From Bacillota bacterium (lineage in GTDB: Bacteria > Bacillota > DTU030 > DUMP01), in contig DURJ01000054.1 of the NCBI GenBank assembly GCA_012837285.1, positions 1 to 36,824 on the forward strand: a stretch of DNA of 36,824 nt. The letters are read 5' to 3'. Positions 69-28,239 of the stretch are shown piece by piece; position 1 is the stretch's first letter; every line of letters begins with the position of its first letter. The notes below the pieces were generated by a model. The model was not told the DNA's origin. It made no database searches and worked only from the letters and a program-made list of their open reading frames with translations. The position numbers and the translations under genes were made by a program.

Positions 69-1472
69 GTGCGTTCCTATACTTCTTTAGTCCGACATGA
101 GGGAAATCGTGAGTTGTTCTTTTTTGCTGAACTCGCCGTTATCGGCCTTTCCGCTGGCATACCGATACATCTGCATGTGGAAGGGCTTAGGGGGACGGGA
201 AAGACCACTATTTTGCGAGCTGTCCGCTTCATATTACCCCAATTGGTTCGAATAAAGGGCTGCCAGTTCAATTGCCACCCGGACACTCCTTATTGTCCCA
301 CGCATAGTCTGTTAACTAAGGAACAAGTGAATGCTCTGGAGTCTGAACAGATCCCTGTTCCATATCTTGAGATATCACATTCGGCGAAGATAGGAACAGT
401 GGTGGGAACTTTGGATCTAACCCGGTTAACAAATACGGATCGACCTGAGGCTACCATGCTTCCGGGAACACTACCCCAGGCTCATAGGGGTATAGTACTG
501 GTGGATGAAGTAAACCGCCTGGCCGATACCGCTCCGGAGCTTACGGACATACTCCTCGATGCCATGGGGACCAAGCCCGGGCGGGTACAGATCGAAGAAA
601 ACGGTTTACCCACGCTGGCACTTCCTTTGCAGTTGAGTGTGTGGGCCAGTTCTAACCCGGATGAAGATCCCGGTTCATTAGCCGATATTAGGCGGCAACT
701 TTGCGACCGCTTCGATTTCATGATTCAAATGGGTCGTCCCAGGGAGGTCGAGTCCTTATTGGCTATTTTAAGTCTTAACCCAGAGTTTGGTCCAGTAGCG
801 GAACAGAGAACAGAAGCTGATGTCCAATTGGGCCAGATCCTGGTCGAGAAAGCAAGAAGGGTTGAGGATATAGAGATTCCAGCCGCAATCCTGGAGTCTT
901 TAGCAGAAATCTATCTTAAACATCATTTGGAAAGTCTACGATCTTTGGAAGCTATCAAGACCGGGTCTGTGTTGGCTCGAGCTTGGCGGGGCGGGTATGA
1001 GGTTACGTGGGACGATGTACTGACAGTTACACCGGCTGCTTTGAGGCACCGGCTCAATCCGGAACAATTAGCGGCTGTGCTTCAAGAGCTGCAGCGCGCG
1101 CGCGGGATAATAGCCAGCCCGGCTGTTGCAGCCGGCAGTGGCCTGACTTCTGTATCCACCGAGACACAAAAGGTAGCCCAGGCTAATGGGAGGAGAGAAC
1201 AATCAAAACAGCCGCTTAGATGGTGGAGTAGGGTTGTGGCTTGGTGCCGGCGGTTGCTGCGTCGACGCGACCGTTACCAGGGGAGTGAAAGAGGTGCAGC
1301 AACCAAAGCCAATAATAACCCGGCTGCTGCCGGGCGAGGATCACCTTCCGCACAAAGCAATCCATTGGATATGCCGCTGGTGGCTCCTCCCTTGACTGCG
1401 CGACCATTGTGGGAACTGGATATGGACGATGCCATCGCCAGGGGAGAAATGACCAATGATCCAACCGAATGA
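69..1472 (+). CDS. Magnesium-chelatase ChlI-like AAA+ ATPase
   Basis: This is an AAA+ ATPase of the ChlI/BchI type, 467 residues. The Walker A motif GLRGTGKT is at residues 39-46. It is followed by a Cys/His cluster (C65, C69, H70, C76, H79), the ChlI-type stretch VVGTLDL at about 111-117, Walker B LVDE (D146, E147) and sensor-1 N196. An arginine-finger candidate lies in RRQLCDRF (208-215). After about residue 340 the protein changes to a low-complexity tail. That tail holds a Trp/Arg-rich segment near 383-400 (WWSRVVAWCRRLLRRR) that could form an amphipathic membrane-binding helix. The GTG start is chosen because AGGAGAGG lies at 51-58. It overlaps the next gene, a VWA protein, by 17 bases, so the two probably form one motor/adaptor complex. 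The family inserts metals into tetrapyrroles or remodels protein complexes. No tetrapyrrole gene is nearby, so the substrate is unknown. Confidence 0.85.
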   Translation: MRSYTSLVRHEGNRELFFFAELAVIGLSAGIPIHLHVEGLRGTGKTTILRAVRFILPQLVRIKGCQFNCHPDTPYCPTHSLLTKEQVNALESEQIPVPYLEISHSAKIGTVVGTLDLTRLTNTDRPEATMLPGTLPQAHRGIVLVDEVNRLADTAPELTDILLDAMGTKPGRVQIEENGLPTLALPLQLSVWASSNPDEDPGSLADIRRQLCDRFDFMIQMGRPREVESLLAILSLNPEFGPVAEQRTEADVQLGQILVEKARRVEDIEIPAAILESLAEIYLKHHLESLRSLEAIKTGSVLARAWRGGYEVTWDDVLTVTPAALRHRLNPEQLAAVLQELQRARGIIASPAVAAGSGLTSVSTETQKVAQANGRREQSKQPLRWWSRVVAWCRRLLRRRDRYQGSERGAATKANNNPAAAGRGSPSAQSNPLDMPLVAPPLTARPLWELDMDDAIARGEMTNDPTE

Positions 1473-3141
1473 AAGAGGACGATTGGGGCAGCAGTTGGTT
1501 TCGGCATTAGCGAGTACCGAAGGTGTACGCTTGGGAGAAAGCACGGTGATTAGCCGCCGTGTCCATGTGGTGGCCGTAGACAAACCGGAAGAGGTGCGAA
1601 TCGTTGGGGCTGATGCCGGGCGGGTGTTTTATGGACGAGGCGTGGATGGTACCGTCTATCACATTGACGTTTTTCATCAAGTGGGCTGTGTTGACCATCG
1701 AGCTGTCGCTCGAGTAATAACGGATGTGATGAGAACCGAGACGCCTGATGTTGCCACTGCCTTTTTAGATCGAATGGATATTCAGACCGCTACCGGCGGG
1801 GGCCGGCTTACCGGGAGCTTAACTTTTGGTCGCAAAGAATCACTACGGCGGGCTCATGCTAACCATGTCCACATAGCATCAGAACTAGAGTCCGATCGGC
1901 TACCGCTGTTAGTGCCGGTGGTTGCTGCAGTAGAGGCAGAAATAATTAGGCAGGGTTTGGAAATTCGCAAAGTGGAAAGGGTCATCTTGGATTTACGAGG
2001 ACATAAAGGATCTGAGTTGGATATGTCTGCCTATATGTCTGAGAGCGATTCATTTTTGCGAGAAGAGAAGCTCTCCTCAGACATTACTCGAAAGACCACT
2101 GACAGTACCATAGAAGAAACCCATTGTCTGGTCACTGAGACCTTACCGCCGGCCGAACTCCTACAGTTGTTGCGCTCATTTCCTTTTCGTCCTAACGATG
2201 AACATCGACAGCGCTGGGGAGATCTGGATCATACGCTGGAGACTTTACGAAGCAAAGGCCATATCGCCCGGAAACGAGGCGTATGGACATTAACAGTCAA
2301 GGGTCAAACATTGCTTGATGCGGTCAACTTGTACTTACCGGAGTTGGAAAGCAGGCTGCGTCGGTTCTTGCGTCGCCTTCCGGCCGGGAAGAGCTGTTTG
2401 CGTTCGGCGGTAACCACGAAACCGGGAGTCGGCCGCCAAAGGTTACGGGAGAAATCGAAAGTAACCCTTAATAACCAGGGGGGTCAACTCAATTTAGCAG
2501 CTACTGCTACCCAAGCGGCTTGCCGCTGGATTTCAGGTCAGAGCCAACCAGGTTGCATCCATCACGAGACTTGGCGTTACAGTCGACTGGAAAGGCACCA
2601 GACTGTAAACATAATTTTATTAGTGGACAGTAGTGCTTCTATGGCTGGGGACCGATTGCGTGCTGCTCGTCTCCTGGCTCAACATCTGGTTCTGTCTACG
2701 CGAGACAGAGTGGCGGTAATTGCTTTCCAGGGTGAAAGTGTGCTGGTTCCAACTAATTTCAGCAGCTCTTTGGTTAAGATCCAAGCCCAGTTATTGGCGC
2801 TGAAGGCAGTTGGTCTTACCCCTTTGGCCCATGCTCTGCAAGAGACAATTCTGTTCGTGCGTCAGCACCGAGTCTACAGACCTTTGGTAGTGCTGATCAC
2901 TGACGGTATCCCCACAGTGGCACTGGCCGGCGGCGATCCCAGTGCAGATGCCTTAACTCTGGCGACGCACTTTCGATCGTTACCGTTAGAGTTTGCGTGC
3001 ATCGGTCTTAATCCCAATCAATCGTTTCTGGAAAAACTAAGCCAAAGGAGCGGTGGACAGTTATATGTTGTGGAAGAACTGGACACGTCTGTTTTGGCCC
3101 AATTGGTACATAAAGAACTGCAGCGGCGGCGGGCCCATTAG
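1456..3141 (+). CDS. VWA-domain protein, ChlD-like partner of the AAA+ ATPase
   Basis: This 561-residue protein ends in a von Willebrand factor A domain (about 385-555). Its metal-ion-dependent adhesion site looks intact: DSSAS at 391-395, T455 and D483 in ITDG. A winged-helix-like stretch around 235-300 (RKRGVWTLTVKGQTLL) and a linker to the VWA domain resemble the C-terminal half of magnesium-chelatase subunit D. I do not recognise the first 230 residues. The ATG start has GGGGAG about eight bases upstream, inside the preceding gene, and the 17-base overlap implies translational coupling. AAA+ plus VWA pairs usually act as a ring ATPase with an adaptor that binds the target through the MIDAS. 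No integral chelatase subunit (ChlH/CobN-like) is present in the window, so a chaperone role is as likely as metal insertion. Confidence 0.8.
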   Translation: MIQPNERGRLGQQLVSALASTEGVRLGESTVISRRVHVVAVDKPEEVRIVGADAGRVFYGRGVDGTVYHIDVFHQVGCVDHRAVARVITDVMRTETPDVATAFLDRMDIQTATGGGRLTGSLTFGRKESLRRAHANHVHIASELESDRLPLLVPVVAAVEAEIIRQGLEIRKVERVILDLRGHKGSELDMSAYMSESDSFLREEKLSSDITRKTTDSTIEETHCLVTETLPPAELLQLLRSFPFRPNDEHRQRWGDLDHTLETLRSKGHIARKRGVWTLTVKGQTLLDAVNLYLPELESRLRRFLRRLPAGKSCLRSAVTTKPGVGRQRLREKSKVTLNNQGGQLNLAATATQAACRWISGQSQPGCIHHETWRYSRLERHQTVNIILLVDSSASMAGDRLRAARLLAQHLVLSTRDRVAVIAFQGESVLVPTNFSSSLVKIQAQLLALKAVGLTPLAHALQETILFVRQHRVYRPLVVLITDGIPTVALAGGDPSADALTLATHFRSLPLEFACIGLNPNQSFLEKLSQRSGGQLYVVEELDTSVLAQLVHKELQRRRAH

Positions 3142-3204: not shown

Positions 3205-3525
3205 ATGTTGACCTTGGTATTGGCGCTTATCTGTGCCTTACTGGTGGCTGTTTTCGCCGTTCAAAATGCTAAGCCGGTGGCCGTGACTTTTTTAGCCTGG
3301 CATTTCGAAATATCCTTAGTTTTAATTATTCTTGGTGCAGCGGCATTAGGGGCGGTGGCTGCATTCTTGTTGGGAACCATAAGACTAGTTAGACAGGGGC
3401 GAACAGTAAGAGAAGCGACCCAGCGAGCTCAACGCCTGGAGTCAGAGTTGGAGCGGCTGCAACGCGCGGCTGAGTCAAAAGAGAGAATGGAACTACCGGT
3501 TCAGAACGGAGAAACTAGCCAGTGA
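3205..3525 (+). CDS. LapA-domain (DUF1049) small membrane protein
   Basis: This 106-residue protein has two hydrophobic segments, at about 2-18 and 30-56. The motif VFAVQNAKPVAVTFLAW lies between them, which is the hallmark of the LapA/DUF1049 family. A charged, probably coiled-coil tail (about 62-95, rich in Glu, Arg and Leu) should lie in the cytoplasm. In proteobacteria LapA proteins help lipopolysaccharide assembly; the role in Gram-positive bacteria is not established. The start uses GGGAGGG, which lies inside a hairpin. The stop overlaps the GTG of recJ (GTGA), so the two are translationally coupled. Confidence 0.8.
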   Translation: MLTLVLALICALLVAVFAVQNAKPVAVTFLAWHFEISLVLIILGAAALGAVAAFLLGTIRLVRQGRTVREATQRAQRLESELERLQRAAESKERMELPVQNGETSQ

Positions 3526-5855
3526 GGCGGTGGGAGTTAGCGGCACCGCCTCTAAGTGAGCAGGTTGAAGCTCTGAGTTTAAAGCTGAGTATTTCTAAGT
3601 TGCTGGCGGCTGTGTTAGTGCAACGTGGCTACACAACAGAGCAGGCGGCGCGACAATTTTTGTCTCCAGATCTGTCCCACCTTCAGACGCCTTTTGCTTT
3701 AGGCGGCATGACTTCTGCCGTGGAACGAATACGACTGGCGCAGCAACGACGGGAGCGAGTAGGGGTTTTCGGGGACTACGATGTGGACGGCATTGTAAGT
3801 ACGGCCATCTTAGTGCTGGCCCTGAAGGAGCTGGGACTGGACGTTATCTACCGTCTGCCGGAACGCTTGACGGAAGGTTATGGCTTAAGCCAAGCTGGGC
3901 TGATGGATTTGGCCCAACAGGGTGCCAGCTTGATTATTACGGTGGATTGCGGTATCTCTAGCCTGTCGGAACTACATTGGGCTCAGGAGCAAGGGCTGGA
4001 TGTAATTATTTGTGACCACCATCTTCCGCCTCCGATTTTGCCCCCAGCTGTAGCTATTCTTAACCCGAAAGTGGTGCCTAATGATGGTCTGTTTATCGAT
4101 CTATCTGGGGCAGGGGTAGCCTTTAAGTTCGCTTGGGCCCTCCATCAAGATGTGGATCAGCGCTGGTTAGAATTGGCTGCTTTAGGCACAGTGGCTGATG
4201 TGGTGCCTTTGGTGGATGAAAACCGGGTTATGGTAGCTCACGGACTAAAAGCCATGAGCTCCAGTGCTTTTCCTGGTTTGCAGGCTTTGGCAGAATTAGC
4301 TGGAGTGGATTTAGCCGCTCTGAAAGCAGGATCTGTCAGTTTTAGATTAGCGCCCCGACTGAATGCAGCCGGCCGGTTAGGAAGCGCTGTTCCCGGAGTA
4401 GAGCTTTTCCTTACTGATGATGAAACGAAAGCCTACGAAATTGCCCAGCAGCTGGATCACGAGAACCGAGAACGCCAACAGATCGAAGCCGAAGTTCTGG
4501 CCCAGGCCATGGATCAGGTGGAGCGGGATGCTGATCTTGGGCTGGAAACGGCTCTAGTGGTGGCCGGCGAGGGTTGGCACCCAGGGGTGTTGGGTATAGT
4601 CGCATCCCGCTTAGTTGACAAATGGCAACGCCCGTCTCTGGTAATATCGTTATCGGATGATATCGGTAAGGGATCCGGCCGCAGCATACCGTGCTTTTCT
4701 TTGTATGACGGACTGAAGGCTTGCAGCTCGTACTTAACAGCTTTTGGTGGGCATCGTTTAGCCGCTGGCTTCAGTCTAGATAAGAAGCAACTTACAGCTT
4801 TTCGTCAGGCTTTCACAGCAGTTGCCAACAGCCGCTTAACTCCGAAAGACTGCGTTGCTTATTCCCGGGTTGACAGCGAGATAACATTGAGAGAGCTTGA
4901 TTTTTCCGTGGTCCGGGAGCTGGAATTGCTGGCACCGTTTGGTTATGGAAATCCCGAACCGGTTTTTCTGCTTCGGGATGTCGGAACCGAGCGGATCCGT
5001 CAAATAGGAACTGACGGTGCCCATCTACGGCTGGATCTGAATCAATTTGGAGAGGCGCTGCCGGCAGTAGGATTTGGGTTGGGGGATAGGGCCAAGGAGT
5101 TGACAAGCGCGAACAAGGCGGATGTTATTGGACATCTGGCAGTGACGCAGTGGCAGGGGTTGCTTGGCTTAGAATTTCGTCTTCAAGATATTCGAACCCA
5201 AAGCTATCCGGTTGAAATATGTTGCCGGCCGAGTGATTCGACTGCTCCCAGGCTGGTGGATTGGCGAGAGACTGGCCCTGCGTTTGCCGACCGAGAAATC
5301 GCCGCCCTAATTTCTGATTACGATCTTATTCTTAGTACACCGCCGGCCCAGCTAAGTGAGCTACGACTGCATCTCGGCAAGGTCCCGCCGCAGGGACGAA
5401 TCTGCTTACACTTTCGTGCGGACGAGGTAGCTGCAGCTCAAGACAATATTAGAGAAAGATACTTGGATCGTGACTTTGTCGCTAAGGCATACTTATTGAT
5501 TAAACAGGCCGGATCCACAGGAATTTCTAAGGCGGAGATGGCCGAGACACTTGGCAGCAGACAGGAAGAGACAGAAGGTAGAATTCAGCTAGCATTAACA
5601 GTTTTGGCAGAATTGGGTTTGGTCGAAGAACAGCTACCAAATGGCATACCCTACTTTCGCCTGATACGCGGAACGGGTAAGAAACGAGTTGATCTAAGTG
5701 TTTCACCGACCATCAAAAGGCTCGCCCACGAAAAAGCCCAGGCAATGGAGCTACTGGCCTTTTTTGCTGAAGCCCCGCCTGCTATACTAGCCGAAGCGTT
5801 AGGACGTCTGTGGAGAGAGTGCCAAACAATGGCAGAAGATGGCCTGATATGTTAG
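3522..5855 (+). CDS. recJ: Single-stranded-DNA-specific exonuclease RecJ
   Basis: RecJ is a 5'-3' single-strand exonuclease of recombination and mismatch repair. The DHH phosphoesterase motifs are visible: GDYDVDG near residues 83-89, ITVDCGIS near 146 and the eponymous DHH in IICDHH near 164. They are followed by the DHHA1 region with APRLNAAGRLGSA near 280 and AFGGHRLAAGF near 407. At 777 residues it is about 200 longer than E. coli RecJ. The extra C-terminal part is usual in Bacillota homologues and here includes a winged-helix-like stretch near 660-710. The GTG start overlaps the lapA stop codon. relA follows within 40 bases, as in many clostridial genomes. Confidence 0.95.
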   Translation: MRRWELAAPPLSEQVEALSLKLSISKLLAAVLVQRGYTTEQAARQFLSPDLSHLQTPFALGGMTSAVERIRLAQQRRERVGVFGDYDVDGIVSTAILVLALKELGLDVIYRLPERLTEGYGLSQAGLMDLAQQGASLIITVDCGISSLSELHWAQEQGLDVIICDHHLPPPILPPAVAILNPKVVPNDGLFIDLSGAGVAFKFAWALHQDVDQRWLELAALGTVADVVPLVDENRVMVAHGLKAMSSSAFPGLQALAELAGVDLAALKAGSVSFRLAPRLNAAGRLGSAVPGVELFLTDDETKAYEIAQQLDHENRERQQIEAEVLAQAMDQVERDADLGLETALVVAGEGWHPGVLGIVASRLVDKWQRPSLVISLSDDIGKGSGRSIPCFSLYDGLKACSSYLTAFGGHRLAAGFSLDKKQLTAFRQAFTAVANSRLTPKDCVAYSRVDSEITLRELDFSVVRELELLAPFGYGNPEPVFLLRDVGTERIRQIGTDGAHLRLDLNQFGEALPAVGFGLGDRAKELTSANKADVIGHLAVTQWQGLLGLEFRLQDIRTQSYPVEICCRPSDSTAPRLVDWRETGPAFADREIAALISDYDLILSTPPAQLSELRLHLGKVPPQGRICLHFRADEVAAAQDNIRERYLDRDFVAKAYLLIKQAGSTGISKAEMAETLGSRQEETEGRIQLALTVLAELGLVEEQLPNGIPYFRLIRGTGKKRVDLSVSPTIKRLAHEKAQAMELLAFFAEAPPAILAEALGRLWRECQTMAEDGLIC

Positions 5856-5895: not shown

Positions 5896-8055
5896 GTGAA
5901 ACTGGAGGAACTGTGTGAGAAAGTAAAAAGCTACAATCCTAGCGCCGATCTGGCACTGGTAGCTAAAGCGTATGATTTTGCTGCCATAGCTCATGCTGGC
6001 CAATTTCGCATTTCCGGTGATCCTTATATTCAGCATCCCCTAGGGGTGGCCCATATCCTGACCGAACTCGAATTGGACGCCATTACCATTGCTGCTAGTC
6101 TGCTGCATGACGTGGTGGAAGATACTAAAATCACGCTGCAAGATATCCAAGAGGAATTCAATAAGGAAATCGCCTTGTTAGTAGACGGGGTGACAAAACT
6201 CAGCCGAATTGAGTACAAATCAAAGGAAGAACAGCAAGTAGAGAACCTGCGTAAGATGTTCTTTGCCATGGCCAAAGACATCCGCGTTATTCTAATCAAG
6301 TTAGCCGACCGCTTGCATAATCTCCGTACCTTGAAGTACCTACCAGTTAGAAAGCAGAAAAAGATTGCTCAGGAGACACTGGATGTATACGCACCTTTGG
6401 CTCACCGGCTGGGGATCTTTCGGATCAAATGGGAGTTGGAGGACACAGCCTTTCGCTATTTGGAGCCGGAAAAGTATTATGATCTGGTGGAAAAGGTTGC
6501 CAAGAAACGTCCGGAACGAGAATCCTATATCAACCAAGTTATCGGTATTTTAGAGCCCAAACTAGAAGAGGTTGGTATACAAGCTGAAATCCAGGGCCGG
6601 CCGAAGCATTTGTACAGTATATATCAAAAGATGGCTCAGCAAAATATAGACTTTCGAGAAATCTATGATCTGACGGCTATCCGAGTTATTGTAGACACCA
6701 TCAAAGACTGTTATGGTGTTTTGGGTGTAGTCCATACTTTGTGGAAGCCTGTGCCGGGACGTTTTAAAGACTACATTGCCATGCCTAAAATCAATATGTA
6801 TCAGTCACTGCATACCACTGTGATCGGCCCGCAAGGTGAACCGCTGGAGATCCAGATTCGCACTTGGGAGATGCACAGGACGGCAGAGTATGGCATTGCG
6901 GCTCACTGGCGTTACAAAGAAGGGAGCAAAGACAGCGACGAATTTGATAAGAAGCTACTGTGGTTGCGGCAGCTATTGGAGTGGCAGCACGACTTGCGCG
7001 ATGCGCGTGAGTTCATGGAAACACTGAAAATTGATCTGTTTGCCGATGAAGTCTTTGTGTTTACACCCCGAGGGGACGTGATTGACTTACCGGCTGGATC
7101 GTGCCCCATTGATTTCGCTTACCGCATTCATACCGATATTGGGCATCGGTGCATAGGAGCCAAGGTAAACGGGCACCTGGTACCATTGGATTATAAGCTG
7201 CAAAACGGTGATATTGTCGAGATTGTAACCAGCAAATTAGCTGCTGGACCAAGTCGAGACTGGCTTAAATTGGTACGGACTCCGCAGGCCAAAGCTAAGA
7301 TCCGACAGTGGTTCAAGAAAGAACGGAAAGAAGAGAGTGTAGCCCGCGGACGGGAAACACTAGAAAAGGAAATCCGTAAGTTGGGCTACGAGCCGCATGA
7401 GTTACTGGCTGATGGCCCCCTGGAAGCTGTACTGGAAAGGCTTTCTTTTTCAACTACGGAAGATTTGCTTGCTTCCGTGGGTTACGGTGGCCTGTCAGTA
7501 AACCAGGTAATTACACGCTTACGAGAAGAGTATCGGCGCTTGAATCCAGAAATTGAAGCCCAGATGGCAGTACCGGATCTAAAGCCGCGTCCACAAACTA
7601 CTGATGTCAGCCGTGGAGTCAAGGTAAAAGGCGTCGATAATTTGCTGATTCGGCTCTCCCATTGTTGCAACCCTGTTCCCGGGGACCCTATTATTGGCTA
7701 TATTACCAGGGGACGCGGTGTGTCTGTGCATCGGGTGAATTGTCCTAACGTGGCGTTTTTAAGCGATCCGGAGCGGTTGATTGAAGTTAGTTGGGATCAG
7801 GACCAAGCAGCTTCTTTTGCAGCCGACGTGGAACTAGCTGCAATGGACAGACCTGAGCTCCTTAGCGATGTCATGAATGTACTCAGTGATATGCGAACCC
7901 GTATCAGTGCCGTAAATGCCCGCACTACTCGAGATATGATTGCCATTATTAGCTTACGCCTGGAAATCAGAAATCTGGAAGAGCTAAAAGCCATTATTAA
8001 CCGGCTGAGCTCTATTCGAGATGTTTTCAGTGTGGAGCGGGTGTCGCCTGCTTAA
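5896..8055 (+). CDS. relA: Bifunctional (p)ppGpp synthetase/hydrolase (Rel)
   Basis: This is the stringent-response alarmone enzyme, long RSH type, about 719 residues. Domains in order: HD hydrolase (LLHDVVEDT near 68-76), synthetase ([12 protein letters not shown] near 233, then [10 protein letters not shown] and QSLHT), TGS ([11 protein letters not shown] near 384) and a C-terminal ACT domain (about 650-718). The intact HD motif and synthetase motifs predict both activities. The reading frame opens earlier, at GTG 5866, but that codon has no ribosome site. GTG 5896 has GAAGAGGGA (5881-5889) at good spacing and begins where other Rel proteins do, so I chose it. The gene lies 40 bases after recJ and 14 before dtd, consistent with one operon. 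Confidence 0.95.
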
Positions 8056-10557: not shown

Positions 10558-11910
10558 ATGGAAGCTTTAATGGCGTTAAACTCAAAGGTGAACTCTTTTG
10601 TTTGGGGTCCTCCTATGCTTATTCTGCTAGTTGGAACTGGTATTTACCTTACCATAAGGCAGAATTGGCTACAGGTGAACAAGTTTGGCTATTCCCTTAA
10701 AATGACTCTCGGACGGTTAAGGGAAAAAGGAGAAGGCGTAGGTGGCGAGGTTACGCCATTCCAGGCTCTGGCCACGGCCATGGCCGGTACAATCGGTGTG
10801 GGCAACATTGCTGGGGTGGCCACCGCCATTGCTAGTGGCGGACCGGGGGCTGTATTTTGGATGTGGGTGTCGGCTTTCTTTGGTATGGTCACCAAGTATT
10901 CGGAAGCGGTCTTGGCTGTGCATTCTCGTGATGTCCTGCCCGATGGTACTGTCATCGGCGGACCGTTTAAGTATATTGAGAAAGAACTTAACGCTAAATG
11001 GCTGGCTTCGATTTTCGCTCTCTTTGGGGCCCTAGCAGCTTTCGGCATTGGCAATATGACCCAGTCCAATGCAATTGCTCAAGTGTTAAATACGTATTTT
11101 AATGTACCGCATCTGGCAACCGGGATTACTCTGGCTGTGCTGGTAGGCGCAGTGGTTATTGGAGGTTTAAAAAGCATTGTTAAGGTTACTGAAATCCTGG
11201 TACCCTTTATGTGCATCTTCTACTTTTTTGCTGGTATCGTTATAATAATTATGAATATAGGCAAAGTGCCAGCTGCTTTGGGACTTATAGTAAATAACGC
11301 CTTTACCGGGACAGCAGCTGTGGGTGGGTTTGCCGGAACTACTGTCATGATGGCCATGAACAAAGGCGTAGCCCGCGGCGTATTTAGCAACGAAGCCGGC
11401 CTTGGTAGCGCTCCCATCGTGCACGCTGCCGCCAGGGTGAAACATCCGGTCGAACAGGGATTCTGGGGCATATTCGAAGTGTTTGCCGATACGCTTGTTA
11501 TTTGCTCAATAACGGCTCTGTCTATCATTCTCACCGGCGTTTGGCAGACCGGTGAAACCGGTGCCGGCTTAACAGCCTTGGCCTTTGGTCAGGCGCTTCC
11601 GGGAATTGGCCCTTACTTGGTTACTGTCGGTGTAGTACTCTTTGCCTACTCCACTATGCTCAGCTGGGAATACTACGGCGAAAAATGTCTAGAATACTTG
11701 GCTGGGCCAAGCATCCGCCTGGGTTATAGAATACTGTTCATTCCATTCCTTATCGTTGGGGCTGTTGGGGCTCTTGAGGCCATCTGGGATCTAGCCGACA
11801 CTCTAAATGGGCTGATGGCTATTCCCAACTTGATCGGTCTGCTCGGTTGCTCCCCCATTATATTCAAGCTCACCAAGGAGTATTTTACTGAAGTAAGAAA
11901 CTCTAAGTAA
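10558..11910 (+). CDS. Sodium:alanine symporter, AGCS family
   Basis: This is a secondary transporter importing alanine (or glycine) with Na+, about 450 residues and strongly hydrophobic with some ten membrane segments. Family-typical stretches are visible: TPFQALATAMAGTIGVGNIAGVATAI near residues 64-90, FKYIEKEL near 142 and NEAGLGSAPIVHAAA near 277. GTG at 10555 is only four bases from AAAGGAG, while ATG at 10558 has seven, so I prefer 10558. It sits between ald and alr, and import, oxidation and racemisation of alanine fit together. Hairpins on both sides suggest separate mRNA segments. Confidence 0.93.
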   Translation: MEALMALNSKVNSFVWGPPMLILLVGTGIYLTIRQNWLQVNKFGYSLKMTLGRLREKGEGVGGEVTPFQALATAMAGTIGVGNIAGVATAIASGGPGAVFWMWVSAFFGMVTKYSEAVLAVHSRDVLPDGTVIGGPFKYIEKELNAKWLASIFALFGALAAFGIGNMTQSNAIAQVLNTYFNVPHLATGITLAVLVGAVVIGGLKSIVKVTEILVPFMCIFYFFAGIVIIIMNIGKVPAALGLIVNNAFTGTAAVGGFAGTTVMMAMNKGVARGVFSNEAGLGSAPIVHAAARVKHPVEQGFWGIFEVFADTLVICSITALSIILTGVWQTGETGAGLTALAFGQALPGIGPYLVTVGVVLFAYSTMLSWEYYGEKCLEYLAGPSIRLGYRILFIPFLIVGAVGALEAIWDLADTLNGLMAIPNLIGLLGCSPIIFKLTKEYFTEVRNSK

Positions 11911-13251: not shown

Positions 13252-13505
13252 CGACATGAGCATAAGGCTAAAGCGTAGATGGGAACAGTAGGTCGAAAGC
13301 GGATGTTCAGGGAGCTTGTGCCGTGACTGTAAGCGCAGGCCATCGTCGCGCGCCGAAGAACATCCCAGAGTGGCAAACTGAACCAAAGTAAGTTCGCCCG
13401 GTTTATTCCGTTATGATTTAAGTGGGGCGCTATGCCCAAACAGGGTGGTACCGCGGGAATCCTCCCGTCCCTGGCAGGCTTTGGGCCGGGGAGGGGGGAT
13501 TTTTC
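13252..13505 (+). promoter_or_regulatory. T-box riboswitch leader of hisS-aspS; Asn specifier candidate
   Basis: This is a tRNA-sensing transcription attenuator. The conserved T-box AGGGTGGTACCGCG is at 13442-13455. A terminator follows (AATCC 13458-13462 with GGATT 13497-13501, extended by CCC/GGG blocks) and ends in TTTTT. Stem I folds by hand with lower helix TGGGA (13280-13284) / TCCCA (13363-13367) and tandem G-A pairs below it (13278-13279/13368-13369, kink-turn-like). AGTA lies at 13287-13290, and the upper helix begins with GG (13291-13292) / CC (13353-13354). The eight-base 3' loop (13355-13362) matches the alaS leader in size and in starting GAAG. The codon in the specifier position is AAC (13359-13361, Asn). 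It overlaps CAT (13361-13363, His). The variable T-box base is U, which can pair with A73 or wobble with G73 but not with C73 of tRNA-His. Confidence 0.85.
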
Positions 13506-13530: not shown

Positions 13531-14790
13531 ATGCTGACTACAGCGCCGCGAGGAACACGCGATATTTTGCCGGAAGAAGCAGTCCGGTGGCAGTATGTTG
13601 AGCAAGTTATTCGTGAGTGCTGCAATCTGTATGGTTACGGGGAAATACGCCCACCGCTGTTTGAACATACAGAGCTATTTCAGCGCAGCGTCGGGGAAGC
13701 AACGGATATTGTGGAGAAGGAAATGTATACGTTTAAGGATCGTGGGGGAAGAAGCATTACCCTACGGCCTGAGGCTACTGCCTCCACTGTCCGTGCTTAC
13801 TTAGAACACAATCTTAACGCCGGCCCGCAACCGGTCAAAATGTACTATTTAGGTCCGATGTTTCGCTATGATCGCCCCCAGGCTGGACGCTACCGGCAGT
13901 TTTCCCAATTTGGGATTGAGGCCATTGGAGCTCAGGACCCTACTGTCGATGCCGAGGTTATTGCAGTTGCCTTGGGTTTGTGTTCCCGTTTGGGGCTCAC
14001 AGAATTAGAAGTGGAACTAAACAGTATTGGTTGTCCTCAGTGCCGGCAGGATTATCGCCAGGCTTTGTTATCGTATCTTGGCGAACACAAGGACAACCTA
14101 TGTACAACCTGCCTCAACCGGATGGATCGTAATCCGCTGCGAGTCTTGGACTGTAAGGAAGAAAGTTGCCGTGAAGTAACGGCTAAAGCTCCTCGGATGT
14201 TAGAGTATCTGTGCCCTGAGTGTGCCGAGCACTTTAAGACTGTCCAAGGGTGCTTACAAGGGATAGGTGCCAAGCATGTTCTCAACCCAACATTGGTAAG
14301 AGGGTTGGACTACTACACTAAGACAGTGTTTGAAATAACGTGGTCCGGATTAGGAGCACAGACCGCTATTTGCGGTGGCGGTCGCTACGACGGCTTGGTT
14401 GAAGAATGTGGCGGACCTTCAACTCCGGGCGTAGGGTTTGCCATGGGGTTAGACCGCTTATTGTTAGCCATAGAGGAGACAGGTATAACCCTACCGAGTC
14501 AAAACCAACCGGTAGCATACGTGGTGGCAGTATCTAAAGCTGATAACCAAGAAGCATTTACTATCTTGACCCGTTTGCGCCGCGCTGGCATTGCCAGCGA
14601 CAAGGATTACCGTGAAACCAGCTTACGAGCACAACTCAAAGCAGCCAATCGCTGCGGAGCACGATTTACTGTTCTAGTGGGCGGTGTGGAACGAACCCGA
14701 GGAGCGGTGGCTGTACGCCATATGGTTACCGGTGAGCAGCAGGAGGTACCATTGAGTCAGTTGACAACTTTCTTGCAGGAGGGCATGTAA
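13531..14790 (+). CDS. hisS: Histidyl-tRNA synthetase
   Basis: This class II aminoacyl-tRNA synthetase charges tRNA-His. The 419-residue length is normal. The N terminus [11 protein letters not shown] is the HisRS signature. Class II motif 2 appears as [19 protein letters not shown] near 108-126. The HisRS-specific strings [14 protein letters not shown] (near 254) and GGGRYDGL (near 285) and a C-terminal anticodon-binding domain complete it. The ATG has AAAGGAGG at 13516-13523. It is transcribed from the T-box leader with aspS, whose start follows the hisS stop by two bases. Confidence 0.97.
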
Positions 14791-16653: not shown

Positions 16654-16845
16654 AACTAAGAGATCCCTGCTGTGTACGTGGTGAGTCGGCTAGTTTTGAG
16701 CCAACACCTTTGAAGAGGGAGCTACGGCTCTGACAGTTACGTACATGCCCCTTAGGGGACGTACAACCCTGTCAGGCGGGCACCCACCTGCTTGAGAGAG
16801 CAGCTTCAAAAACGGCCGACCCACGGCATGGTGGGGTATTTTTTT
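16654..16845 (+). ncRNA. ssrS: 6S RNA
   Basis: This stretch of about 190 bases has no coding capacity and a long closing stem. For example, GTCGGC near 16685-16690 pairs with GCCGAC (16814-16819), and GTACGT-containing arms flank the middle. It ends with CCCAC (16820-16824) / GTGGG (16831-16835) followed by a T run (16839-16845). Position is the main evidence: in B. subtilis 6S-1 RNA (bsrA) lies between aspS and the tcdA homologue yrvM, exactly as here. Length, own promoter and rod-like folding agree. 6S RNA mimics an open promoter and sequesters sigma-A RNA polymerase. Exact ends were not determined. A covariance-model search against the 6S family would settle it. Confidence 0.75.
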
Positions 16846-25316: not shown

Positions 25317-25556
25317 AATGAAAGAAAAGCGAGGAAGGAAAAAGTACCTTTAGTCTTTCTCTAAGCGAGGGAACCCTTAGGGTGGAAGGTTCCTAGGGTG
25401 TCTAAAGGGAAGGCCGTTCCTGAGCTGGGCGTGAAGAGCGCTCCCGGTGGGCACCGTTAACACTTCTGTGCAGTTTAGCACCTTCTGAGGCTACATGGTA
25501 GCAAATCAGGGTGGTACCACGAGAGGAACCCTCGTCCCTGCGACGGGGGTTATTTG
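25317..25556 (+). promoter_or_regulatory. T-box riboswitch leader of alaS, specifier GCC (Ala)
   Basis: This is a tRNA-Ala-sensing attenuator. The T-box AGGGTGGTACCACG is at 25508-25521. The terminator AACCCTCGTC (25527-25536) / GACGGGGGTT (25542-25551) has one wobble pair. Stem I has lower helix GGAA (25337-25340) / TTCC (25417-25420), the AGTA motif at 25343-25346 and upper helix CCTTTAG (25347-25353) / CTAAAGG (25402-25408). The eight-base 3' loop contains specifier GCC at 25413-25415, an alanine codon. The variable T-box base U pairs with A73 of tRNA-Ala. Specifier, T-box base and downstream gene all agree. Confidence 0.92.
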
Positions 25557-25587
25557 TGCTTAAAACCATTATGAAGGGGTGAAGGCA

Positions 25588-28239
25588 ATGGAAAGACTAA
25601 GTGGTGACGAGATTAGAACCCGGTTCTTAGATTTTATGGAGAGTAAGGGGCACCTTGTGTTACCCAGTGCGTCTTTAGTGCCGGAACAAGATCCCAGTCT
25701 GCTTCTTATCGGAGCCGGAATGGCGCCGTTTAAACGTTACTTCACCGGTCAGGCTACGCCGCCGGCACTAAGGATAGCGACTTCACAAAAGTGCGTGCGC
25801 ACCGGTGACCTGGAAAACGTTGGCCGTACCGCCCGCCATCACACTTTTTTTGAGATGCTAGGGAACTTCTCTTTCGGGGACTATTTCAAGGCAGAGGCTA
25901 TTCCCTGGGCTTGGGAATTTCTGACCGAAGACTTGGGATTACCTAAGGAACATCTTTGGATCTCTGTCTACACTGATGATGACGAAGCCTATGATATTTG
26001 GCACGACCGAGTCGGAATCCCAGCGGAGCGGATTGTGCGGCTGGGTAAGGAAACAAACTTTTGGGAGATTGGCACCGGTCCGTGCGGCCCTTGCTCAGAG
26101 ATCTATATCGATCTTGGTCCGGAGCGGGGCTGTGGCTTACCTGATTGCAAAGTGGGCTGTGACTGTGATCGTTACTTGGAAATATGGAACTTAGTGTTTA
26201 CCCAGTTTGACCGGGATGAAGCCGGCAATTATGCTCCTTTGCCTAAGAAGAATATTGATACCGGCATGGGCTTGGAGCGCCTGGCCTCGGTATTACAGGG
26301 TGTTTCCAATAACTTCGAAACGGATTTGCTTTTTCCCATTATCGAAGCTGCTGCCACAGTGGCCGGGGCAAGATATGGCCGGTCCGAAGATATCGATGTA
26401 GCACTTAAAGTAATCGCCGACCATAGCCGGGCCATTGTTCATCTAATTGCCGATGATGTTTTACCGGCAAATGAAGGTCGAGGTTATGTGCTAAGACGAT
26501 TGTTGAGACGAGCGGTAAGGTATGGTCGTTTGCTGGGAATCAAGAAACCATTCTTAGGCCGGATTGCTTCTGTGGTGGTAAAGGTGGGCTGTACGGCTTA
26601 CCCGGAATTGGTAGGAAAAGAAGTGTTCGTACAAGAAGTAATAAAAAGGGAAGAAGCTCGCTTCTTGTGCACTTTAGACACAGGACTCAGTATTCTAAGT
26701 GAAATGATTGACAAATTAGAAGAGGATAGACAACGGACTCTCACCGGCCATGATGCTTTTCGGCTTTACGATACGTATGGGTTTCCGTTAGACCTCACTA
26801 GAGAGATTCTGGCTGAGCAGGGTTTTGAAGTGGACGAAGCTGGCTTTCAAGCGGAGATGGACGCGCAGCGTGAACGCGCTCGCTCGGCCCGCTTGTCGGA
26901 CACCCCCATGGAAAGCTGGGATTATCAAGATGAACTGTTTGCTGATGTTTGTTCGGAGTTCATTGGTTATGACAGTCTGGCCACAAATGAGGCCTATATC
27001 CAGGCTTTAGTAGTAGACGGATTGCCGGTAACTGAAGCTGGGGCCGGAATGTCTGTACAAGTGGTTTTGGATCGGACTCCATTTTACGCTCAGGGCGGTG
27101 GCCAAGTGGGAGATGGCGGCACTATACAAACAGCAGCGGGAGGCTTAGTGGAGATAAGTGATACCAAACAAGTTGCCTCAGGCGCTATTGTTCACAGCGG
27201 CCAGATAGTCAAAGGCACGATTCACACAGAAGAAGAGGCTATAGCCGAAGTGAGCAAGGAGCGGCGGTTGGCAACGGCTCGGCATCACACCGCGACCCAC
27301 CTGTTGCACCAGGCGTTACGGCAGGTACTGGGCGCTCACGTACATCAGGAAGGCTCACTGGTAACTCCGGAACGACTCCGGTTCGACTTTTCCCATTTTG
27401 GCCCACTCACAGAGGAAGAGTTACGAGCGGTGGAGAAGCTCCTAAATGAAAAGATTTTGGCCAATATTTCCCTGGAAATAACTGTCATGAGCCGAGAGCA
27501 GGCTCAGGCGTCAGGGGCTATTGCGTTGTTCGGAGAGAAATATGGCGATCTAGTACGAGTAGTAAGAATTGGCTCATTTAGTCAAGAACTATGCGGCGGC
27601 ACCCATGTTAGTCGTACCGGGCAGATTGGGTTATGCAGAATCCTAAGTGAGACCAGCGTAGGTGCAGGACTGCGCAGGATCGAGGCGGTAGCAGGAATGG
27701 AAGCTTGGTCCTTGTGGCGGCGACGGGACATGCTGCTGGCAGAAACAGCCGAACTCATGGGTACTACCGAAGAGGATGTTGTGGCCAAGGTAGAAGAGCT
27801 TAGAGCTGCCTTGAAAGAGAAGGATAGAGAGCTGGCACAGCTGAACGAAAGGATGTTGGAACTCGCTGCTCTGAGAGTGTTAGATCAGGTGGAGCAAGTA
27901 GGGGACAGCAAGTTGCTGTCCACGGCAATTACTGCCCACAGTATGGATGATCTACGCACGGTAGTAGATATTCTTAAGGCCCGTCTGCCCAGCGCGGTGA
28001 TTGTTTTAGGTTACCGGAGCCAGGACAGGGTCAATTTCATCGCTTATGTGAGCCGTGATTTAGTCGCCCGTGGCCTACATGCCGGTCAGATTGTAAAAGC
28101 TGCCGCAGCTGTCGCCGGCGGAGGGGGCGGTGGGCGACCGGGACTGGCTCAGGCTGGTGGCAAAGAACCTTCCAAGCTACAAGCGGCTTTGGCTGCAGCT
28201 GTGAGTGCGGCCAAAGAGAAGCTACAAAGTATTTACTAA
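25588..28239 (+). CDS. alaS: Alanyl-tRNA synthetase
   Basis: This class II AlaRS of 883 residues has the aminoacylation domain at the N terminus (SQKCVRTGDLENVGRTARHHTFFEMLGNFSFGDYFK). The editing domain carries zinc ligands H567, H571, C669 (CGGTH) and H673. The C-terminal C-Ala domain is glycine-rich (AGGGGGGRPGLAQAGG). ATG 25588 is chosen because GAAGGGG lies eight bases upstream; GTG 25579 overlaps that site. It is controlled by the T-box leader. ireB follows after a 10-bp hairpin, the order seen across Bacillota. Confidence 0.97.
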   Translation: MERLSGDEIRTRFLDFMESKGHLVLPSASLVPEQDPSLLLIGAGMAPFKRYFTGQATPPALRIATSQKCVRTGDLENVGRTARHHTFFEMLGNFSFGDYFKAEAIPWAWEFLTEDLGLPKEHLWISVYTDDDEAYDIWHDRVGIPAERIVRLGKETNFWEIGTGPCGPCSEIYIDLGPERGCGLPDCKVGCDCDRYLEIWNLVFTQFDRDEAGNYAPLPKKNIDTGMGLERLASVLQGVSNNFETDLLFPIIEAAATVAGARYGRSEDIDVALKVIADHSRAIVHLIADDVLPANEGRGYVLRRLLRRAVRYGRLLGIKKPFLGRIASVVVKVGCTAYPELVGKEVFVQEVIKREEARFLCTLDTGLSILSEMIDKLEEDRQRTLTGHDAFRLYDTYGFPLDLTREILAEQGFEVDEAGFQAEMDAQRERARSARLSDTPMESWDYQDELFADVCSEFIGYDSLATNEAYIQALVVDGLPVTEAGAGMSVQVVLDRTPFYAQGGGQVGDGGTIQTAAGGLVEISDTKQVASGAIVHSGQIVKGTIHTEEEAIAEVSKERRLATARHHTATHLLHQALRQVLGAHVHQEGSLVTPERLRFDFSHFGPLTEEELRAVEKLLNEKILANISLEITVMSREQAQASGAIALFGEKYGDLVRVVRIGSFSQELCGGTHVSRTGQIGLCRILSETSVGAGLRRIEAVAGMEAWSLWRRRDMLLAETAELMGTTEEDVVAKVEELRAALKEKDRELAQLNERMLELAALRVLDQVEQVGDSKLLSTAITAHSMDDLRTVVDILKARLPSAVIVLGYRSQDRVNFIAYVSRDLVARGLHAGQIVKAAAAVAGGGGGGRPGLAQAGGKEPSKLQAALAAAVSAAKEKLQSIY

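Follow-up and report, generated by a model that had tools for sequence, protein, structure and literature searches.

The window analyzed here is the whole of contig DURJ01000054.1 (36,824 nucleotides (nt)), one of the 204 contigs of a 2.17-Mb Bacillota genome that is 95% complete. At its left end lie two genes, encoding an AAA+ ATPase that resembles the chelatase subunit ChlI and a protein with a C-terminal von Willebrand factor A (VWA) domain. We refer to these as the pair and read them as probably a two-gene motor-adaptor machine that remodels a client protein. The two open reading frames (ORFs) overlap by 17 nt, such that the start codon of the VWA gene falls inside the end of the ATPase gene. 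Both ORFs are intact, as is the metal ion-dependent adhesion site (MIDAS) of the VWA protein (D391-S-S393-A-S395, T455 and D483), and thus the preliminary description of this DNA, a ChlI-like ATPase overlapping a VWA protein with an intact MIDAS, was borne out. As the contig starts 68 nt 5' of the ATPase gene, the gene upstream is known from relatives only.

By profile search the nearest structure of the ATPase in the Protein Data Bank (PDB) is ChlI (8osf, E 6.5e-30). The protein fell short of all three NCBIfam chelatase models, scoring 132.4 bits against TIGR02442 (cut-off 779.45; residues 37-334 covered), 110.9 bits against TIGR02030 (cut-off 466.95) and 76.9 bits against TIGR02031 (cut-off 499.55). 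Walker A, Walker B, sensor 1, the arginine-finger region, sensor 2 and the MIDAS residues of the partner are invariant in ten members of the class to which the genome belongs, and the Walker, sensor 1, arginine and sensor 2 residues are conserved across 37 pair ATPases. The ATPase had been credited with ChlI-specific motifs. Its VVGTLDL segment, like the Walker motifs, is conserved. The Cys/His cluster differs from that of true chelatases, being CCCH where they have CCCC: the fourth ligand is His in 37/37 pair ATPases and Cys in 47/47 chelatase rows. The same 84 rows differ in Walker B (DExNR in the pair, mostly DExNL in chelatases), in sensor 1 (SNPDE versus mostly MNPEE) and in sensor 2 (ES-R versus G-R, mostly GHR). 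Within these alignments the CCCH site is diagnostic for pair ATPases against chelatase-type ATPases.

A tree of these 84 domains (37 from pairs and 47 of the cobaltochelatase type) was built by a quick method and rooted at its midpoint with no outgroup; a search of the class with PF07726 as a source of MoxR sequences gave only matches judged from ORF lengths not to be MoxR. The 37 pair rows are set apart from the 47 chelatase rows by a branch with 100% support in the Shimodaira-Hasegawa-like approximate likelihood ratio test. From the midpoint root this branch runs for about 3.7 changes per column in each direction, a length of the kind that the tool flags. On this tree the pair ATPases are a lineage separate from, yet related to, the chelatase ATPases.

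The Trp/Arg-rich tail that had been called unusual is present, but it is not unique to this genome, W386 being retained in 10/10 class members. Its helix has a hydrophobic moment of 0.69, a value reached by none of 100 shuffles. Further on, P440, P441, A444 and L447 are invariant in 10/10 class members, and most of 61 tails inspected by eye have an ending like APPxxAxPL. An amphipathic helix is only suggestive of membrane attachment, and the earlier proposal that the machine might be membrane-attached finds little support: no 19-residue stretch of either protein exceeds a hydropathy of 1.74, a peak that falls in the N-terminal part of the ATPase.

The VWA protein is longer in front of its VWA domain than had been thought. 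About 380 residues, not some 230 unrecognized ones, precede that domain, which begins near residue 384 in a full-length model of mean predicted local distance difference test (pLDDT) score 86.9. In this model the helices and wing of the putative winged-helix region (residues 211-306) can be seen, and the HTH_45 family was found there in 9/10 class members (best E 0.00096), the window copy, at 13.6 bits, being below the cut-off of 25.5. Residues 306-345 have an isoelectric point of 12. TIGR02442 covers residues 335-538 (89 bits, cut-off 779). Hence, with that model split over the two proteins at low bit scores, the pair is like a divided ChlI-ChlD fusion without being one. The nearest PDB structure of the VWA domain by profile is BchD (2x31, E 2.7e-12).

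Table 1 Features of the pair and its downstream neighbors (positions in the window; AF2, AlphaFold2; pTM, predicted template modeling score)
Feature	Position	Strand	Basis
AAA+ ATPase of ChlI-like pair family	69..1472	+	intact ORF, 467 aa, GTG start
Walker A GLRGTGKT, residues 39-46	183..206	+	invariant in 10/10 class members
CCCH site C65, C69, C76, H79 (residues 65-79)	261..305	+	37/37 pair rows
Walker B VDEVNR, residues 145-150	501..518	+	conserved
Sensor 1 (195-199) to arginine-finger region (208-215)	651..713	+	conserved
Trp/Arg-rich amphipathic tail helix, residues 382-399	1212..1265	+	hydrophobic moment and W386
C-terminal APPxxARPL motif, residues 439-447	1383..1409	+	class alignment
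VWA protein	1456..3141	+	intact ORF, 561 aa, ATG start
N-terminal globular domain, residues 1-205	1456..2070	+	AF2 pLDDT 94.0, pTM 0.91
Candidate metal ligands H37, D53, H69, D71, H74, H137, H139, E160	1564..1935	+	conservation
Probable winged helix, residues 211-306	2086..2373	+	HTH_45 in relatives, model
Disordered linker, residues 311-341	2386..2478	+	pLDDT < 50
ChlD-like pre-VWA segment, residues 343-384	2482..2607	+	TIGR02442 match, helix 347-359
VWA domain with intact MIDAS	2608..3138	+	DxSxS 2626-2640, T 2818-2820, D 2902-2904
lapA-like gene and recJ, conserved neighbors, same order also without the pair	3205..5855	+	

The pair is widespread, occurring in many Bacillota that branch deeply in the phylum. 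A search of 398 sampled Bacillota genomes with a profile of the VWA protein gave matches at E <= 0.001 in 178, of which we assign 117 to the family (E <= 6.1e-39, with a gap to the next match at 1.5e-24). The pair family is therefore found by profile in 117/398 genomes, nearly a third of those sampled, and the term orphan, if taken to mean isolated, is not supported. A pattern-plus-tblastn scan of the genome_contigs collection gave 59 loci, including Thermosediminibacter, Tepidanaerobacter, Symbiobacterium and Fermentithermobacillus; the list is not exhaustive, as a locus is found only where short peptide patterns match exactly. By record name we take all 59 to belong to Bacillota except L035, named only "bacterium", and L037 (Candidatus Acetocimmeria). 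A plasmid search returned only two VWA-domain matches, annotated as a putative cobaltochelatase and a magnesium chelatase subunit D.

The two genes stay together. The ATPase gene lies within 400 nt of the VWA gene at 49/54 and 18/20 loci of two sets, and at the seven remaining loci it is on the same strand, six having a longer overlap of the ORFs and one (L111) a gap of 421 nt. The adaptor gene is amplified within family f13 of the phylum: three tandem VWA genes stand behind one ATPase gene in L111 (5170-12343) and two in L112 (6594-11622), the L111 proteins being 73-75% identical. Several tandem VWA proteins served by one ATPase are as expected of adaptors. The pair was not detected in three of the 13 genomes of the class (G011, G003 and G002). 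Loss was considered for these and set aside, assembly gaps being more likely: recJ, too, gave no match in G011 and G003, and the G002 contig breaks off within the lapA-like gene, a short way upstream of recJ.

The N-terminal domain of the VWA protein is confidently modeled when taken by itself and has no recognized relative. The window copy matched no Pfam family, the best PDB sequence match had E 0.82, and the domain model gave no match at E <= 0.001 in the PDB by Foldseek (best E 0.071, MscS) or in BFVD. Its best VIA match, the biotin protein ligase 3efs_A (Z 5.4, root-mean-square deviation (rmsd) 3.5, 106 residues aligned), is within background, and we neither claim nor reject a biotin protein ligase or MscS fold for the modeled domain. 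No characterized orthologous pair having the same N-terminal domain appeared in the family, structure or sequence comparisons. A domain like S-adenosylmethionine decarboxylase was also tried and rejected (profile-profile probability 0.4%, with at least 8 of 30 column-shuffled controls scoring higher). PF02675 was touched by 3/55 N-terminal domains (best E 0.0082) and, among 20 members scanned singly, by two, over residues 17-84.

Conservation of this domain was assessed on 43 VWA rows from the profile-found genomes (three genomes are counted twice), a set gathered without the RAHxNHVH pattern used to find the genome_contigs loci. The domain is present in 42 of the 43, and S33, H37, D53, G55, H69, D71, H74, H137, H139 and E160 are kept in 42/42 domain-bearing rows; the eight His, Asp and Glu positions among these are likewise invariant in the 55/55 rows of a second alignment (A3). 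A divergent subfamily (L111-L114 and L123-L125) keeps the invariant set while mostly losing D108, R117, H134 and other residues. The secondary structure of the model assigns H69, D71 and H74 to a single strand and H137 and H139 to a second; H37 and D53 each have a further strand of their own, and E160 belongs to a helix. The invariance of the eight positions suggests a candidate metal site in the N-terminal domain.

Given an ATPase of ChlI type coupled to a VWA protein with an N-terminal domain, linkers, a pre-VWA segment and a VWA domain with MIDAS, a layout like that of NorQ-NorD, we propose that the pair is a motor-adaptor remodeling machine, most likely maturing or metallating a metalloprotein as NorQ-NorD does, and we put the probability of this reading at roughly 0.6. 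The remodeling machine of the preliminary description remains the best reading. A ring of ATPase subunits is predicted, on which the VWA protein would dock through its VWA domain, its pre-VWA segment and perhaps its C-terminus to make a complex. The MIDAS and the N-terminal domain would hold the client, and ATP turnover would twist or pull the VWA protein and so reshape the client, the task being most likely the maturation or metallation of a metalloprotein. With the full-length VWA model as query the first Foldseek match by E-value was the NorD chain of the NorQD complex (9qhe_G, E 1.8e-8, 278 columns), and NorD chains also held ranks 3, 4 and 7. A report on NorQD describes a finger of the VWA domain that enters the ATPase pore, contact of the NorD C-terminus with the ring, and ATP turnover that twists the NorD linker so that the client is opened for metal insertion, iron being inserted by such a mechanism (PMC13036017). 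An earlier NorQD study suggests that MoxR/VWA couples in general, and ChlD too, bind in the same way, and proposes that the variable N-terminal domain of such VWA proteins sets target specificity (PMC9976466).

Our VWA protein has a pre-VWA helix (residues 347-359) and the TIGR02442-matching segment, and we infer that the pre-VWA segment is a candidate counterpart of the NorD finger. The pair shares with NorQ-NorD, the MoxR-type ATPase and VWA adaptor that mature nitric oxide reductase, an ATPase and a VWA protein composed of an N-terminal domain, a linker and a C-terminal VWA domain with MIDAS. It differs in that its ATPase is nearer to ChlI than to MoxR models, its N-terminal domain lacks recognized relatives and is followed by the probable winged helix, and no client like nitric oxide reductase is seen adjacent. 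RavA-ViaA and CbbQ-CbbO also combine an AAA+ motor with a VWA adaptor for client remodeling, as proposed for the pair; the likeness is by description, and neither a respiratory complex nor a Rubisco client is seen adjacent to the pair.

Several observations weigh against the motor-adaptor proposal. Although the pair has one trait of MoxR couples, an AAA+ gene beside a VWA gene with an intact MIDAS, its ATPase does not reach the cut-off of the MoxR family AAA_3 (PF07726, 17 bits, cut-off 27). For the VWA domain, VIA-align ranks generic VWA domains first (Z 21.1, rmsd 2.2, 175 residues aligned) and lists no NorD chain in its best 50 rows, so the NorD likeness comes from Foldseek and the architecture. 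The metal-binding reading of the N-terminal domain has conservation as its sole basis, and one lineage (L118) retains the ATPase and the VWA protein without that domain. Finally, neither a constant third partner nor a consistently adjacent client gene was seen in the neighborhoods read.

A quite different reading would make the proteins divergent I and D subunits of a Mg- or cobaltochelatase that uses an unrecognized large subunit, such enzymes being those that put the metal into chlorophyll and vitamin B12. The PDB neighbors of the two proteins, ChlI and BchD, speak for it, and the pair is like the ChlI-ChlD and BchI-BchD chelatases and the cobaltochelatase fusions (TIGR02030, TIGR02031 and TIGR02442) in its ATPase core, Cys-rich insert and pre-VWA plus VWA segment. 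It differs from them in scores far below the cut-offs, in CCCH rather than CCCC, in its own branch of the ATPase tree, in a VWA protein without an AAA+ domain and in having no H/CobN subunit. The absence of a chelatase partner, noted earlier for the window, holds genome-wide: CobN/ChlH (PF02514) gave no match at E <= 0.001 in this genome, at its completeness of 95%, and the 13 genomes of the class are likewise without it. Nor does cobN or chlH adjoin the pair in the relatives read, where secDF lies upstream instead. One of the 13 class genomes, though not this one, has CbiD, which marks synthesis of the corrin ring. Across the phylum 46/396 genomes have CobN/ChlH, and pair and CobN occur together in 13 (odds ratio 0.93, Fisher p = 1, in a statistic that ignores kinship of genomes and joins a pair search of 398 genomes to a CobN search of 396). 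There is no association, co-occurrence being as expected by chance. In G080, G180, G228 and G304 the pair coexists with a separate CobN and chelatase set. We therefore regard chelatase subunits as very improbable, and the genes are easily misread as such though most pair-bearing genomes lack CobN.

If the eight conserved residues do bind metal, the pair might instead be a self-contained metal insertase, in which the N-terminal domain is the metal-loading or catalytic module and the ring of ATPases would power the handling of metal within the adaptor itself. Stated as a machine, a ChlI-like CCCH ring would drive a VWA adaptor bearing its own metal center, the function of the H subunit being built into the adaptor. 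The invariance of the eight positions in 42/42 rows and two subfamilies, a confident fold, and the placing of HxDxxH and HxH on strands with H37 and D53 on two others argue for this. Against it, the domain is without a recognized relative and is absent in L118. We consider the insertase unlikely. A metal-bearing adaptor domain is nonetheless the part that could raise the pair beyond a variant of the known AAA+/VWA kind. The motor, the adaptor domain with its eight invariant potential ligands and the CCCH site offer a testable target for studies of client choice and of direct metal handling by AAA+/VWA machines. Among curated families none names the pair, and we found no description of it in the open-licence PubMed Central literature.

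Two further readings turn on gene neighborhood. In nine class relatives secD and secF lie upstream and recJ downstream, the latter mostly preceded by the lapA-like gene, and among genome_contigs loci with enough flank secD/secF are upstream in 29/41 and recJ downstream in 38/49 (5 and 8, respectively, of a further 19 loci). A cation exporter is directly upstream in five loci (L030, L063, L066, L119 and L120; PF01545 in the two scanned), and in L022, the same gene as scanned in L030, it stands between secD/secF and the pair. A role as accessory chaperone for SecDF or the cell envelope would fit the frequency of secD/secF and the amphipathic tail helix. However, in 20 pair-lacking genomes, those near the top of a 119-entry recJ list, secD/secF are upstream of recJ in 16 and a cation exporter in 12. 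As the secDF, exporter, lapA and recJ block also occurs without the pair, the block is older than the pair and its members are not evidence of function. In other lineages, moreover, the pair sits elsewhere, among unrelated genes. Partnership with SecDF or the cation exporter was accordingly dropped, and a role as envelope chaperone seems improbable. Membership of a MoxR-VWA ternary conflict or defense system would account for the same two core components, as given in PMC7159879. In PADLOC the P-loop gave weak matches only and the VWA domain none, the class neighbors are housekeeping genes and no third effector gene was seen, so such a role is exceedingly improbable.

Some loci have other neighbors. 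In five Fermentithermobacillaceae loci (L053, 3722-4405; L050, L057, L080 and L081) a small Cys-rich protein, LIM-like by eye, is encoded directly upstream of the ATPase; it matched no Pfam family above cut-off in the two scanned. In L126 PHP-domain genes lie on either side of the pair (7138-7890 and 11028-11762, minus strand).

Elsewhere in the window three RNAs scored above the Rfam gathering threshold. T-box leaders at 13267-13475 (+) and 25323-25542 (+) precede a hisS-like ORF (13531-14790) and an alaS-like ORF (25579-28239), respectively, and a 6S RNA at 16661-16841 (+) lies between an aspS-like ORF and the next ORF, these genes being named by eye.

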